Positions 21,507 through 32,479 of a stretch of DNA of 38,957 nt are shown here, one piece after another. The position numbers and the translations under genes are program-made. The DNA is from a virus: the IMG/VR virus record IMGVR_UViG_3300037541_000264, positions 1 through 38,957 of that record. One strand, written 5' to 3'. Position 1 is the stretch's first letter, and each line of letters begins with the position of its first letter. Below the pieces are notes generated by a model. It was given only the letters and a program-made list of their open reading frames with translations, had not been told where the DNA came from and searched no databases.

Positions 21507-21659
21507 TTAGCTGTTTCGTGCGGCAATACGTTCAGCGATTGCGAGTGCCCTATGCTCGGTTAGCTGTGCGTTTGTGACTGCGAAAACGGTTCCATCTTTG
21601 CTGACGATGTATCCGACCCACTGACCGAATTGGTTTTGTTTGGCGTAGTGGTTTTTCAT
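21507..21659 (-). CDS. Small hypothetical protein, 50 aa
   Basis: ATG 21659 overlaps the stop of the 77-aa gene (ATGA, 21656-21659). The product begins MKNHYAKQNQFGQWVGYIVS and continues KDGTVFAVTNAQLTEHRALA with a helical end (IAERIAARNS). The strand-turn-strand opening and helix would fit a small DNA- or protein-binding fold. Its ATG sits at the end of leader repeat copy 2, so it probably shares translational control with the 94-aa gene. Confidence 0.6.
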   Translation of the reverse strand: MKNHYAKQNQFGQWVGYIVSKDGTVFAVTNAQLTEHRALAIAERIAARNS

Positions 21660-21889
21660 TTTGTTTTGTTTTGGTAGAGATAGTGTCTGGCGAGGTGGAG
21701 CGGTGCTCCGTGGTCCCTGCAAAGCTCTCTTAGGGTTTTCTGTGCTTTGAATATGTCCGCAACTTTCATTGCGGCCCAGCCTCGCTTGGTAGGCAATCTA
21801 ATTCTGGTCTTAATGACTGTTTCTTTAGGCATTATCACTGAATGTTCAGGGTTAATGCCTGTTTCTTTAGATGTTGTGTCTTGTTCCAT
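21656..21889 (-). CDS. Small basic protein, 77 aa
   Basis: The frame from ATG 21889 (MEQDTTSKETGINPEHS) ends 4 bases inside the next gene. An internal ATG at residue 20 is an alternative start. The C-terminal part (GWAAMKVADIFKAQKTLREL, CRDHGAPLHLARHYLYQ) looks like two helices with a basic end, so nucleic-acid binding is possible. The last 13 codons are the source of the repeated leader. It follows the 444-bp non-coding tract, of which the last bases before the ATG are A-rich (AATAACAAAAACCT). Confidence 0.6.
   Translation of the reverse strand: MEQDTTSKETGINPEHSVIMPKETVIKTRIRLPTKRGWAAMKVADIFKAQKTLRELCRDHGAPLHLARHYLYQNKTK
21657..21697 (-). repeat. 41-bp leader repeat, copy 2 (intact gene end)
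   Basis: This copy forms the last 13 codons and the stop of the 77-aa gene and at the same time the A-rich leader and ATG of the 50-aa gene. It differs from copy 1 at 4 of 41 positions with no insertion or deletion. The exact 300-bp offset suggests a segment duplication. Confidence 0.75.
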
Positions 21890-21944
21890 AGGTTTTTGTT
21901 ATTTTCTGACAAGGTTTTGACGCCGCTGCGCAATTCGCGGCTAG

Positions 21945-21980
21945 TTAAGCTGCCAAATATCCGACAGAGAAGATTCCATA
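21945..21980 (-). repeat. 36-bp repeat with a mini-ORF, copy A
   Basis: On the minus strand it starts TATGGAATCTTCTCTG and ends TTTGGCAGCTTAA. The ATG opens a 12-codon frame, MESSLSDIWQLN. It aligns with copy B (22049-22084) at about 30 of 37 positions with two single-base gaps. The first seven codons stay in register (M E x x L x D), then the frame shifts. Confidence 0.6.
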
Positions 21981-22048
21981 GGCCGTTAGGCCAATGTCTG
22001 AGAGTCCCGTTTGCACTACCCCAAAAGAATCAGGGCTTCGGTATGCGC

Positions 22049-22084
22049 TTAGCTGCCAAATGATCCTCCAGAGGGAGTTCCATA
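22049..22084 (-). repeat. 36-bp repeat with a mini-ORF, copy B
   Basis: On the minus strand it starts TATGGAACTCCCTCTG and ends TTTGGCAGCTAA. The ATG opens a 17-codon frame, MELPLEDHLAAKRIPKP. It lies 104 bp from copy A. Whether the conserved part is a leader peptide or an RNA element cannot be decided from two copies. Confidence 0.6.
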
Positions 22085-22218
22085 CCGCCCTCCCTCGAAT
22101 CTTCAAAGTTGGGGAACGGATTTTCGCGCTGTCCTAGCAAAGCTGAGTAACGCCGCTTCAGGCGTCTGGAGCAATTTGGCTGATACGCCCCCAGAACGGT
22201 GCGCTTCTTTTTCTGGGC

Positions 22219-22255
22219 AAAAAAGTGCCCCAAGGTGGAATCAGCACCAAGGGGC
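22219..22255 (-). terminator. Intrinsic terminator with a 7-nt loop
   Basis: On the minus strand the stem GCCCC (22251-22255) pairs with GGGGC (22227-22231). After a 2x2 T/T internal mismatch GGTG (22245-22248) pairs with CACC (22234-22237), closing a loop CTGATTC. Two bases later comes TTTTTT (22219-22224). It would stop leftward transcription about 330 bases before the 77-aa gene. Confidence 0.7.
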
Positions 22256-22326
22256 GTTCTTAGGGAATCCGGCCTTAACGACCGAAAGACGAAAGTTTTC
22301 CTCAAGCTCTGATTCAGCTACCTAGC
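22219..22326 (-). ncRNA. Candidate small regulatory RNA, about 108 nt
   Basis: A transcript would begin near 22326, about 7 bases after an extended -10 box, and end at the T-run 22219-22224. The 3' hairpin loop CTGATTC (22238-22244) is exactly complementary to GAATCAG (22309-22315) near the 5' end, so a 7-bp pseudoknot or an alternative anti-terminator pairing can form. Between them lie CTTTCG/GGCCGG-rich segments able to make short stems. No known family (tRNA, tmRNA, RNase P, 6S, common riboswitches) fits. It could be a free small RNA or an attenuator for the genes that follow. Confidence 0.55.
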
Positions 22327-22332
22327 GAGGGG

Positions 22333-22341
22333 ATTATACCA
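22333..22341 (-). promoter_or_regulatory. Extended -10 promoter, leftward
   Basis: The minus strand reads TGGTATAAT, a perfect -10 box with the TGn extension. A perfect TTGACA lies upstream, but with only 12 bp between, so it cannot serve as a normal -35; extended -10 promoters do not need one. The box overlaps the last codons of the 82-aa gene. It would drive the small-RNA candidate. Confidence 0.55.
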
Positions 22342-22582
22342 TAGGTTCGTTGTCAATTGGTTTGTTCCCCTCCTTTTCAAATTGTTCTGCCTCTTGAATG
22401 CAGCTTTCAATTTCCGTTTCTACCCATTCGTTGAGCGCGGCCTTATCCGTGATCGTAACGCCGGGAATCACTCCATAGGGCAAGCAATAGCGTAAGAGGG
22501 CCTGCAATTGGCCAACGTGGTAGGGGTAGCAGATTTTGCGGGTGCCGATAAATGCCGTGATGTGTTCTGGTTCTGTTTTCAT
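22334..22582 (-). CDS. Hypothetical protein, 82 aa
   Basis: The product begins MKTEPEHITAFIGTRKICYP and has YHVGQLQALLRYCLPYGVIP, then ITDKAALNEWVETEIESCIQ and an acidic C-terminus. It is soluble and mostly helical. The ATG follows an A-rich leader (AACAAAATAAAACAC). No family is recognised. Its stop codon lies inside the promoter described for the small RNA. Confidence 0.65.
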   Translation of the reverse strand: MKTEPEHITAFIGTRKICYPYHVGQLQALLRYCLPYGVIPGVTITDKAALNEWVETEIESCIQEAEQFEKEGNKPIDNEPMV

Positions 22583-23631: not shown

Positions 23632-24450
23632 TTATGCAGCACCCCAACCGAGGTCCATTGCCTCCTGTTTCGCTCTGGCGGCTTCATACGAACGCCAATT
23701 GGTGCTCTCCCTGTATCGCGTGGCTATGTCACTCATACCAATGGCTTTCTCTGCGGCTTTCTCAAGACGCTTATCAGCCTCCGCTGGGATGAAGTTTTCC
23801 ACGGAATACACCTCGCCATCCACAAATGATGTATGGGTGTTTGGCTTGTAGTCCGACAGATAGCTTGAGCCCAGTGTGGCAAGCAACGAGGGCGTCGTGG
23901 CGAATGCCCAACCATCGTCAATCTTGCCCACCTTGAGCTGCGCCCTGTCGTCTCGCACGATGTCGAGCACCGTCTTGCCCCTGATGCGCTGGAGAATGGC
24001 GAACGCATAATAGCCGGAAATATCCTTGGCCACCGCGTCAATACCATCCGCCTTCCACGCATGGAGCAACAGCTCGGAGTCACAAGTGGTTTCCGTGTTG
24101 TGGAAACGCTTGGAACTCACAACACCGTTGTGCACCAATGCACAGTTGTTGCCCATCATTGGGTGGGTATTTCCCACATTCACACCACACGTTGCCGTGC
24201 GACCATGAATGATGAGGGCACTGCCATCACTCTTGAGTCCATTGCCGTCTGAAAATGCCGAGCAGAACGCTGGCAACTCAGGCAGAAACGAAGGCTGCGA
24301 GCTTTTGACATAACCAATCTTTCCATTCGGGCCAACCCACGCTGCCCCGAATCCATCTCTCTCTGTCGTGGACATTTCTTTCCACGCATTGACAATGATA
24401 GCACCAAGTTTGGTGCTGTCATGCTTAGTAACGATTGCTAGTTTACACAT
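23632..24450 (-). CDS. Class-II glutamine amidotransferase (Ntn hydrolase), 272 aa
   Basis: Cys2 is the expected N-terminal nucleophile (MCKLAIVTKH). The other class-II elements follow: DGFGAAW (32-38), IIHGRTATCG (80-89), NTHPM (94-98), LVHNGVV (105-111) and the glutamine-site motif TTCDSELLLH (121-130). These enzymes release ammonia from glutamine and pass it to a partner synthetase or ligase. The gene upstream encodes an amidoligase, so the pair could form or remodel amide or peptide bonds. The C-terminal 70 residues (PAEADKRLEKAAEKA and on) are not part of the core. It lies 69 bases after the amidoligase stop, with an A-rich leader (AACAAAAACAT). Confidence 0.88.
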   Translation of the reverse strand: MCKLAIVTKHDSTKLGAIIVNAWKEMSTTERDGFGAAWVGPNGKIGYVKSSQPSFLPELPAFCSAFSDGNGLKSDGSALIIHGRTATCGVNVGNTHPMMGNNCALVHNGVVSSKRFHNTETTCDSELLLHAWKADGIDAVAKDISGYYAFAILQRIRGKTVLDIVRDDRAQLKVGKIDDGWAFATTPSLLATLGSSYLSDYKPNTHTSFVDGEVYSVENFIPAEADKRLEKAAEKAIGMSDIATRYRESTNWRSYEAARAKQEAMDLGWGAA

Positions 24451-24519: not shown

Positions 24520-25521
24520 TCACTCGCTTTCCGTGCTTGGCGTGCTGCTGCTGTAATGGCCGGGATTTAGCTGCTGGTGACGCTTGAGCCAGTAGCTTTT
24601 CTCGTATTCGGTCAAGGGCAATTGACAGAGGGCCGCTACACCCTCAGCCCCCGCCTTGGGCTTTACGTTAATCACGAACAATAGCTCGCACAGTCTAATC
24701 CATGCAATGATTTTCGTGTAATCAACGGTGCCACTGTGCAACCGAATTTCCAACGTCTTATACTTCTTGAACGCCGTGAAGTTGATGGCACGGTAACGAT
24801 TGGTTTCTGAGAAAGAAAGCGCGGCGTAGTCCGTGTTGTTGCGCCTGCTCTCGGGAACAAATTCCTTGAGTGCAATCATCCACGCGGTCATCCGCTTTGC
24901 AATCTTACGCACATCATCTTCCGTGCGACCCCGGCAATCAATGTGGACATGAAGCCCGCATGATGTGTTTACCCTATGGTCAGAGATTAGCCCACAGAAT
25001 TTGTGAAGCCTGTGCTCTAACTCCGAACGCTTTATAAGGATGGCATACTCAACGCCCTCCGTGTTGGGTGCGGGCCTAATACTGCCGTCAGTTTTGGCCC
25101 TTGACCATATAGGAATATCGACTCGCCTTCCAGCGGGCTTTAGGCATTCTATCTCAACGCCAATTGCCCTGTCGTATCTGAATACCTGTGGCGTGAGATT
25201 TTGTTGCTTGATTCTGTCAAGAAACGGTTGCCTAACTAACGGGTCGCAACTGCCCAATTGCTTGGCCAGCCTGCGTTGATGCACCCGATCATTGTATTGC
25301 GTTGAGCCCCTGTATCTGAATACGTCAAGAATGACGTTTTCTATGCCTGTTTTGGTTATTAGTTTTCTTGCTTTTTTGGCGAAACTTTTCGCCCATAGCG
25401 TCTGCGTGTATTCATCTGTGAATGAATACGACGGAATCGCGTAACTAAACTCCCGATGCCTGAAGGTGATGCCTTGAGAGGCACCCTCAGGATACACGGG
25501 TATTTCTATCTGATTTCTCAT
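24520..25521 (-). CDS. Amidoligase-family enzyme, 333 aa
   Basis: The motifs match the amidoligase family (PF12224, COOH-NH2 ligases related to glutamine synthetase): GVEIEC (121-126), DGSI (145-148), GVEYAIL (156-162), NTSCGLHVHID (185-195), FVPESRRNN (221-229), NRYRAIN (241-247) and TLEIRLHSGTVD (256-267). The acidic and basic residues in these elements bind ATP/Mg and the acyl substrate. The first 110 residues are a lineage-specific N-terminal part. Published genome surveys link these enzymes to class-II amidotransferases, as here, and suggest peptide or cell-wall modification. The target is unknown; the lysozyme-like gene on its upstream side hints at the envelope. Confidence 0.85.
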   Translation of the reverse strand: MRNQIEIPVYPEGASQGITFRHREFSYAIPSYSFTDEYTQTLWAKSFAKKARKLITKTGIENVILDVFRYRGSTQYNDRVHQRRLAKQLGSCDPLVRQPFLDRIKQQNLTPQVFRYDRAIGVEIECLKPAGRRVDIPIWSRAKTDGSIRPAPNTEGVEYAILIKRSELEHRLHKFCGLISDHRVNTSCGLHVHIDCRGRTEDDVRKIAKRMTAWMIALKEFVPESRRNNTDYAALSFSETNRYRAINFTAFKKYKTLEIRLHSGTVDYTKIIAWIRLCELLFVINVKPKAGAEGVAALCQLPLTEYEKSYWLKRHQQLNPGHYSSSTPSTESE

Positions 25522-27418: not shown

Positions 27419-27913
27419 ATGAGCCTAGAGAACATCAGCCCCGTTCTATTGTCCTCCCTAGTGGACAGTGATTGTCGCACCCTAGAGGCGCGGGAGCCGA
27501 CGAAGGCTATGCTGTGTTTGGAGCAACTGGCGGAAGGGAATACGTGGGAGGAGATAGCTGAGGCTACGGGATTCTCGTTCAATCAGATTAGTAAGGTGAA
27601 GGCGCGGCATGAGGTGGCCATAGAGGTGAGACGGAAGCAGTTGGCGGCAGATGGGTTTGAGATGGCAGAGGGGCTTAGGTTGTTGGCTAAACAGAAGCTA
27701 GAGATGCTGGCGAACAACCCCGATGCTTTGGCTAAGGTGAACATTCGGGACTTGGTTCTTTCCTATGGGATAGCTGTAGATAAGGGTATGCAGGCTCTAG
27801 GTGAGAACAAGGTGGTGGTAGAGCACAAGGCCGGGAAGCCGAGCTTGGAGGATGCTATGAAGGCTATAGCGGATGCTAGGGCCGCGCTTCAGAAGGAGGC
27901 TGTTAGCATATGA
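27419..27913 (+). CDS. terS: Small terminase subunit (TerS), 164 aa
   Basis: The product has an N-terminal helix-turn-helix (GNTWEEIAEATGFSFNQISK, residues about 40-60) followed by long helices (RRKQLAADGFEMAEGLRLLA) and a C-terminal segment that ends DAMKAIADARAALQKEA. DNA-binding HTH, central oligomerisation helices and position directly before the large terminase are the usual features of TerS, which recognises the packaging site and recruits TerL. Its stop overlaps the TerL start in an ATGA junction. There is no sequence signature unique to TerS, so the call depends on context. Confidence 0.75.
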   Translation: MSLENISPVLLSSLVDSDCRTLEAREPTKAMLCLEQLAEGNTWEEIAEATGFSFNQISKVKARHEVAIEVRRKQLAADGFEMAEGLRLLAKQKLEMLANNPDALAKVNIRDLVLSYGIAVDKGMQALGENKVVVEHKAGKPSLEDAMKAIADARAALQKEAVSI

Positions 27914-29511
27914 TTTGGAGGAAACACGCCATTCTTGCGCCACCAACCAATGAGGAAATGGCGCGAATGCAGCCAGAGGCTCTAGCCTCGCTCTACGACA
28001 TCTATCATCAGGCGATAGAGAACAGCATCCGAGACCCTTACAGGTATGGATTCAAACTTCCTCACTGGAAGAAGGCAGAGGAGTTGTTAGAGTCTTTCAA
28101 TGAGATACTTGTGAGCGGCGGCAATAGATCGTCCAAGACAACGTGGGCAGCAACAGCCGTAGTTAAGGCTGCAATGGACAATCCCGGTAGTGTCATAATG
28201 TGCTTCGCGCAGAATGCAGACGTGTCTATTCGCCAGCAACAATGCGCCATATACGATGCTCTCCCAGAAGAGCTTAGAAAAAAAACCCTTAGTGCGGAGG
28301 AGAACATTAGCTACACACGAAAGAACGGATTCTCCAAGAGTAGTCTAATTCTGCCGGGGACTAAAAGCCACATCATCTTCAAAACCTATGCTCAATTTCT
28401 TAACAACGATACTATTCTGGAAGGTGCGGAGCTGGGCAGTCGTGAACCGGTATGGCTCAATCTTGGGGCTTGGTGTGATGAATACCTTATTGGCCCTGAG
28501 CTACTACGCACTCTGCGTTTTCGATTGGCTACCCGTAACGCCAAGGTCATTGTTACGTTCACTCCGATTGACGGTTACACGGAGGTGGTTAGAGACTACC
28601 TTGAGAAAGCAAGAACTGTTGAAACCAAAACGGCAGAACTCCTCAATGACAGACCGGTTCCGTTTATTCAACACGCTGCGAATGGCAATAGCGCAATCAT
28701 TTACTTCCATTCAAAGGACAATCCGTTTGGCGGTTATGATCGTATTGCTCAGGACTTACAGGGCCGTGGTGAAGAGGAAATCCTAACGCGAGCCTACGGG
28801 GTTCCAACCAAGAGTGCGTCCACTAGGTTCCCCATGTTCTCGCGGGAGATCAATGTCATACCACATGATAAGATACCGCGTGATAACGTAACACGCTACA
28901 TGGTCCTAGACCCGGCTGGGCGCAAGAACTGGTTCATGTGCTGGATAGCCGTAGATGAAAGCGAAACCTACTACGTCTATCGTGAGTGGCCGGATGTTAA
29001 TGTGGGAGACTGGGCCAAGTGGCACGGAGGACGATGGATAGGTGGAGACGGTAGCAAGGGGCTTGGCTACGGCATTAAGAACTACGTTGACCTAATCATC
29101 CGGTCGGAGTCGGATGACAAGGAGGAGATACTGGACAGGCTCATTGACCCGCGCCTTGGCGCAGCCAAGTATCAATCACAGAACGGGGCAAGTTCGATTA
29201 TCGAAGACTTAGCGGACAATGGGCTGACGTTCAATCCTGCGCCCGGTTTGGACATTGAGGACGGCATCCAAGCCATCCAAAGCAAGATGGCCTACAATCG
29301 TAAGGCCAAGATGGATAGCCTCAACCGACCACGCTTCTATGTTTCAGAGAATTGCCAGAACATCATCACTGCCCTTCAGGAATACACGGGGGACGGCGGG
29401 ACGGATGAAGCATGGAAAGACCCGATAGACGTTATCCGCTATGCGTGCATTGACGGCATACGCTGGATGGATAAGACAATACAACAACCAAAACGAAGGA
29501 GCGGATACTAA
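27910..29511 (+). CDS. terL: Large terminase subunit (TerL), 533 aa
   Basis: The ATPase part has Walker A SGGNRSSKTT (69-78) and Walker B VWLNLGAWCDEY (181-192) with Asp190-Glu191, then VTFTPIDGY as the coupling motif. The nuclease part begins YMVLDPAGRKNWFMCWIAVD with the first metal-binding Asp and continues to DPRLGAAKYQSQNGASSIIE and DPIDVIRYACIDG. This is the two-domain motor and nuclease that packages DNA into the prohead. The length is normal. The gene overlaps TerS by 4 bases, and the next gene starts in a TAATG junction. Confidence 0.93.
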   Translation: MIWRKHAILAPPTNEEMARMQPEALASLYDIYHQAIENSIRDPYRYGFKLPHWKKAEELLESFNEILVSGGNRSSKTTWAATAVVKAAMDNPGSVIMCFAQNADVSIRQQQCAIYDALPEELRKKTLSAEENISYTRKNGFSKSSLILPGTKSHIIFKTYAQFLNNDTILEGAELGSREPVWLNLGAWCDEYLIGPELLRTLRFRLATRNAKVIVTFTPIDGYTEVVRDYLEKARTVETKTAELLNDRPVPFIQHAANGNSAIIYFHSKDNPFGGYDRIAQDLQGRGEEEILTRAYGVPTKSASTRFPMFSREINVIPHDKIPRDNVTRYMVLDPAGRKNWFMCWIAVDESETYYVYREWPDVNVGDWAKWHGGRWIGGDGSKGLGYGIKNYVDLIIRSESDDKEEILDRLIDPRLGAAKYQSQNGASSIIEDLADNGLTFNPAPGLDIEDGIQAIQSKMAYNRKAKMDSLNRPRFYVSENCQNIITALQEYTGDGGTDEAWKDPIDVIRYACIDGIRWMDKTIQQPKRRSGY

Positions 29512-32404: not shown

Positions 32405-32479
32405 TGGAGCCCCCGATAGGGATTGAACCTACGACAGCCAGTTTACAAAACTGGTGCTCTACCACTGAGCTACAAGGGC
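32405..32479 (-). tRNA. tRNA-Thr (anticodon UGU)
   Basis: The minus strand folds as a full cloverleaf: acceptor GCCCTTG/CGGGGGC (two G-T pairs), D arm GCTC/GAGC with loop AGTGGTA, anticodon arm CCAGT/ACTGG with loop TTTGTAA (anticodon TGT), T arm GTAGG/CCTAT with loop TTCAATC, discriminator T and an encoded CCA. It reads ACA codons. It points against the structural operon, between the 70-aa gene and the scaffold. Confidence 0.93.

Follow-up and report, generated by a model that had tools for sequence, protein, structure and literature searches.

A phage RNA element in which the loop of a terminator-like hairpin covaries with an upstream hairpin loop

The minus strand of IMG/VR virus record IMGVR_UViG_3300037541_000264 (positions 1 to 38,957, the whole stretch analyzed and hereafter the window) contains an element in which the loop of a putative intrinsic terminator is exactly complementary to the loop of a small hairpin upstream. 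Judged from natural sequence variation among relatives, pairing between these two loops is close to certain, and the pair likely belongs to a terminating leader RNA. We favor, with moderate confidence, a reading in which the element opens a leader RNA of the phage and its terminator hairpin docks on the upstream hairpin, the contact deciding how much short RNA is made relative to readthrough. The fast, compensated change of the loops points to an RNA switch or a recognition code that would head a regulatory or replication cluster. The element represents an RNA family absent from Rfam and carried by a group of uncultured phages, and, for a contact between two loops of which one belongs to the terminator itself, its covariation is unusually clear. 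Its 14 natural compensated loop pairs offer a ready set for asking if intrinsic terminators are tuned by tertiary contacts, and if RNA loops serve phages as a code that tells self from non-self.

Architecture of the 5′ unit

A preliminary description, made from the letters of the window, had proposed a small RNA or attenuator comprising an extended −10 promoter, a transcript of about 108 nt and an intrinsic terminator in a gene-free gap, with an exact 7-base complementarity between GAATCAG and CTGATTC. These elements are present on the minus strand (Table 1). The two 7-mers, at 22315-22309 and 22244-22238, lie 64 nt apart and are fully complementary; the upstream ORF (22582-22334) terminates within the −10, and no further likely gene begins before 21889, leaving the gap free of genes. 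The proposal of a small RNA or attenuator appears to hold as far as sequence can test it. Its interval, 22219-22341, encloses the features described and falls short in extent, as conserved structured RNA runs approximately 300 nt past the terminator.

Two further features had been overlooked. The first is a conserved TTGACA located 12 bp upstream of the −10. The second is that GAATCAG occupies the 7-nt loop of a hairpin with short arms (AGCT-GAATCAG-AGCT), which makes its match to CTGATTC a loop-loop kissing pair. The arms of the terminator hairpin P3, 22255-22245 and 22237-22227, read GCCCCTTGGTG and CACCTTGGGGC with an internal U-U/U-U mismatch, and six T residues follow at 22224-22219. A descriptor specifying two hairpins with exactly complementary loops of 6-7 nt, the second followed by a U-run, matches once in the window versus 0.05 times per Markov-shuffled window. 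The folding energy of the element is unremarkable (z = −1.7).

Table 1. Features of the element and its surroundings, with window coordinates
Feature	Coordinates	Strand	Basis
TTGACA box	22351..22356	−	12 bp upstream of the −10; TTGAC kept in 22/22 distinct promoter rows
Extended −10, TGGTATAAT	22341-22333	−	no change in TG, TA or AT across 22/22 distinct rows
Hairpin P1, arms AGCT/AGCT, loop L1 GAATCAG (22309-22315)	22305..22319	−	inner stem pairs invariant in 23 rows; L1 covaries with L3
Variable middle region with hairpin P2	22256..22304	−	predicted fold; sequence not conserved
Terminator hairpin P3, loop L3 CTGATTC (22238-22244)	22227..22255	−	100% of loop-loop cells paired, 4/7 pairs with double changes
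U-tract of intrinsic terminator, ACTTTTTT	22219..22226	−	35/35 elements with at least 6 T among 8 consecutive bases downstream of L3
H-type pseudoknot and following hairpin	22147..22205	−	320 cells 100% paired, covariation 0.337 vs 0.101 shuffled
Remaining conserved gene-free 3′ RNA region, two similar ATGGA-containing units	21921..22146	−	nhmmer element in relatives; alignment
First downstream ORF, 77 aa, HTH-like C-terminus	21656..21889	−	ORF lists; HTH by eye, no Pfam match

The preliminary description had also suggested that the 7-base match might either allow a pseudoknot or compete with folding of the terminator. The first of these gains support from the covariation of the loop-loop pair across relatives. 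Competition between GAATCAG and the terminator stem was rejected: the match covers the loops, and stems persist on both sides in every class of relatives, so that pairing of the loops is compatible with both hairpins. The 3′ arm of P3 (GGGCA) is in addition complementary to TGCCC just past the U-run (22227-22215, minus strand), and like complementarity between the arm and sequence following the U-run is visible by eye in other classes (for example GGGCTTAA/TTAAGCCC in L064). This arm may change partner in readthrough RNA.

At the 5′ end, TTGAC and TGNTANNAT are unchanged across 22 distinct rows, and TGNTATAAT occurs only once in the window, both strands counted. The 12-bp gap between TTGACA and the TATAAT hexamer is below ordinary sigma-70 spacing, and the TTGAC box may therefore serve another factor; the extended −10 alone could suffice as a promoter. 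Automated promoter and terminator scans of the window did not list these sites, owing to the 12-bp spacing and the mismatch in the stem. For two relatives, L064 and L076, the corresponding gap is apparently about 16 bp.

Loop complementarity among relatives

Searches with the helicase and neighboring ORFs, together with a pattern scan of IMG/VR, recovered approximately 30 distinct relatives from IMG/VR phages for the 440-nt element as a whole, the region found by nhmmer corresponding to window positions 21921-22361. In total, 35 distinct elements with 14 loop types were assigned to four sequence classes, and the two loops are perfect complements, without G-U pairs, in all 35. Full Watson-Crick pairing is thus kept through sequence change. 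The preliminary description had held that uncompensated variation of the two 7-mers would speak against it; the opposite was found, as all 14 versions are compensated. A G+C-rich hairpin followed by a U-run is likewise present in 35/35 elements.

The two loops form the top covarying column pair of a 490-column alignment, a contact that RNAalifold could not have displayed because it excludes pseudoknots. Among the 23 distinct rows of class I, to which the window belongs, every cell of the loop-loop helix is paired without recourse to G-U, and four of its seven pairs have changed on both sides; the inner stem of P1 shows no variation whatever. The covariation score of the whole class I structure is 0.242, versus 0.109 after shuffling and no more than 0.071 after sliding.

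The other classes carry the same arrangement with different sequences. Class II (L006, L018, L026, L027 and L028) has 6-base loops: CTGACA/TGTCAG, ATGACG/CGTCAT, ATGACA/TGTCAT and GTGACT/AGTCAC. Class III (L053, L064 and L076) presents GTGAAG, GTGGTG or GTGATG in a GCGG hairpin, with the complements in a terminator-like hairpin, and was reached through the 3′ domain only. In class IV (L030), the loops CTGAAGG/CCTTCAG precede a helicase that shares 62% identity with that of the window, in DNA that is otherwise unalignable. The R1 covariance model reached class II (E values of 1.6e-5 to 0.008) and neither class III nor class IV, which are linked to the others by architecture and position instead of by 5′-unit sequence.

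Pattern matches in bacteria (L084-L090) show no similarity beyond the pattern and are attributed to chance. The named phage C75C1 (OQ984151.1), with a head protein 67% identical, has no credible copy of the element, and BLAST against annotated phages gave no nucleotide match. Two copies in one genome (L058, IMGVR_UViG_3300020042_011731) proved to reflect a chimeric contig in which two related strains with different loop types are joined head to head in inverted orientation; that sample therefore holds at least two loop types.

The 3′ domain and the proposed leader RNA

Beyond the U-tract lies a conserved region (22205-21921, minus strand), of which pair-by-pair analysis covers the first 59 nt and reveals a covarying pseudoknot. 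The rest occurs in at least two divergent versions that have been exchanged between phages. A coding reading of this region was rejected, since relatives differ by indels of 1-2 nt. In L028, an 86-aa lysine-rich ORF (2624-2884) begins directly after the U-tract and there is no recognizable 3′ domain, indicating that the 5′ unit is separable and can stand alone. The gene-free region following the 5′ unit of L030 ends in a terminator-like hairpin of its own. Small ORFs of helix-turn-helix (HTH) type, most of them recognized by eye and one with weak Pfam support, are located between the RNA and a DnaB helicase gene in most relatives.

By the mechanism that we propose, transcription would start near position 22326, and P1, P2 and then P3 would fold in that order, whereupon the 6-7-nt loop of P3 would kiss the P1 loop over its full length. 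Some polymerases would stop at the U-tract to yield a compact RNA of about 108 nt with three hairpins. Others would read on into the pseudoknotted RNA of about 300 nt and the operon beyond, which encodes the DnaB helicase and small proteins of helix-turn-helix type. Terminator behavior, and hence the proportion of short RNA to readthrough, would be set by the kissing contact.

Comparison among relatives shows the loop-loop pairing, the hairpins, the U-tract, the promoter boxes, the structured 3′ domain and the gene order; from these we infer termination itself, a pairing mainly within one molecule, and the tuning of termination. This leader model draws on the recurrence of the same arrangement upstream of the helicase in the otherwise unalignable DNA of L030, on the complementary loops and U-tract of all 35 elements with no other site tracking the loops, and on the HTH-type ORFs between RNA and helicase. 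Against it stand the 12-bp promoter spacing, abnormal for sigma-70, and the lack of a visible terminator at the end of the 3′ RNA region in the window, as well as the fast and shuffled loop turnover described below.

The pseudoknotted and strongly covarying 3′ domain would also be expected if the element were a single non-coding RNA of about 410 nt that self-assembles via kissing loops in the manner of GOLLD and ROOL, the apparent terminator then being a hairpin with a U-rich linker. Those large phage RNAs, whose function is unknown, are likewise pseudoknotted with covarying kissing loops, and a kissing loop of GOLLD was first found by covariation and then proved intermolecular (PMC12286853). 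We consider this reading improbable, however, as the U-tract is kept in 35/35 elements, L028 has an ORF right after it in place of a recognizable 3′ domain, and the GOLLD and ROOL models in Rfam do not match the element. Unlike GOLLD and ROOL, the element is shorter, differs in sequence and structure, has an internal terminator and is not beside a tRNA island.

Loop turnover, partners and known RNA families

Among close relatives, divergence in the loops is similar to that at unpaired positions and several-fold higher than that in the stems. When mapped on the helicase tree, loop types require 18 changes, compared with a shuffled mean of 17.3, which amounts to random placement and would fit frequent exchange of modules with matched loops. 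Phages L020 and L022 differ in both loops and are nearly unchanged in the region between. For class I, cognate loops pair with predicted energies of −6.5 to −7.1 kcal/mol and non-cognate combinations with none better than −4.1; orthogonality between class II loop types is weak. Loop turnover and pairing energies are compatible with selection for distinct specificities, without constituting proof.

A target in trans elsewhere in the phage genomes was rejected: in ten full or partial genomes, no site besides the two loops follows loop type. The 7-mer is found only in the two loops in genomes G002 and G004, and a third CTGATTC in the window (22033-22027) does not track loop type. It follows that the partner of each loop lies in the RNA itself, either in cis or on a second copy; a target in the host is possible. 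The fast, shuffled turnover exceeds what a purely structural contact would need, suggesting recognition between molecules. In one such scheme, the short terminated RNA would accumulate and its loops would pair with other nascent or full-length copies, altering termination or expression, with loop types defining specificity among related phages during co-infection, in the manner of the ColE1 incompatibility loops or P4 CI RNA. Loops that turn over fast on stems that do not, their random placement on the tree, the stronger cognate pairing in class I, the L020/L022 comparison and the two loop types in the sample of the chimeric contig are all in keeping with it. On the other hand, proximity should favor pairing within one molecule, class II orthogonality is weak, and recombination alone can also scatter loop types over the tree at random. 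Among approximately 40 ORFs scanned there was neither an integrase nor a repressor, so that lysogenic immunity is not indicated. We judge self-recognition in trans to be unlikely, if the most serious rival to the leader model. Slightly less probable still is a strict allelic code, in which the short RNA would act in trans solely where a transcript shares its loop type and selection would keep the diversity; were it true, related phages in one cell would sense themselves or ignore each other.

A precedent for action in trans is Gifsy-1 IsrK, a short terminated RNA that acts on its own readthrough transcript (PMC4825925). As in P4 CI RNA (seqA-seqC immunity) and IsrK, a single promoter within a regulatory region of the phage would here give rise to both short and readthrough RNAs, and in those systems complementary segments within the transcript control termination or translation (PMC4825925). 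Unlike them, the element has as its complementary parts two hairpin loops of 6-7 nt, one being the terminator's own, and shows neither lysogeny genes nor a sequence match. Nor is there a P4 CI-like partner outside the RNA, upstream or downstream in the leader, as no other site tracks the loops.

The full-length pairing of 6-7-nt loops resembles that of ColE1. In ColE1 RNA I and RNA II, loops of this size pair along their whole length, and loop sequence is the specificity code. PMC9458437 deals with how RNAI/RNAII determine plasmid compatibility. The ColE1 partners derive from opposite strands, whereas both loops here lie in one transcript, and no opposite promoter appeared in the scan. The ColE1-style loop sizes and the position of the element in a cluster leading to the helicase could also suggest an RNA primer or replication-origin structure; with both loops on one strand, no antisense promoter pair in the scan and no clear GC-skew switch at the element, we regard this as very improbable.

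More generally, P4 CI/IsrK, the ColE1 loops, and GOLLD and ROOL are the closest working analogues, and the element fits none of them as a family. The packaging RNA of phi29 also has two complementary loops per molecule, whose sequence varies between phages; in phi29 that pairing is intermolecular and works for the packaging motor. The present element differs in that it shares a minus-strand cluster with the helicase, at a distance from the terminase gene (27910-29511). No known riboswitch class was matched, and the 5′ unit lacks a conserved unpaired core; the 3′ pseudoknot could provide a ligand-binding core. In agreement with the earlier claim that no known family fits, Rfam 15 identified only a tRNA in the window, Rfam gathering thresholds gave only tRNAs at seven related loci, and a permissive threshold over the element region returned a single CRISPR-repeat match far below cutoff.

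Elsewhere in the window, an amidoligase-like gene (24520-25521) and an adjacent glutamine-amidotransferase-like gene (23632-24450), both on the minus strand, represent a possible modification pair. A tRNA-Thr (TGT) gene at 32408-32479 is encoded on the minus strand, opposite to the surrounding late genes.
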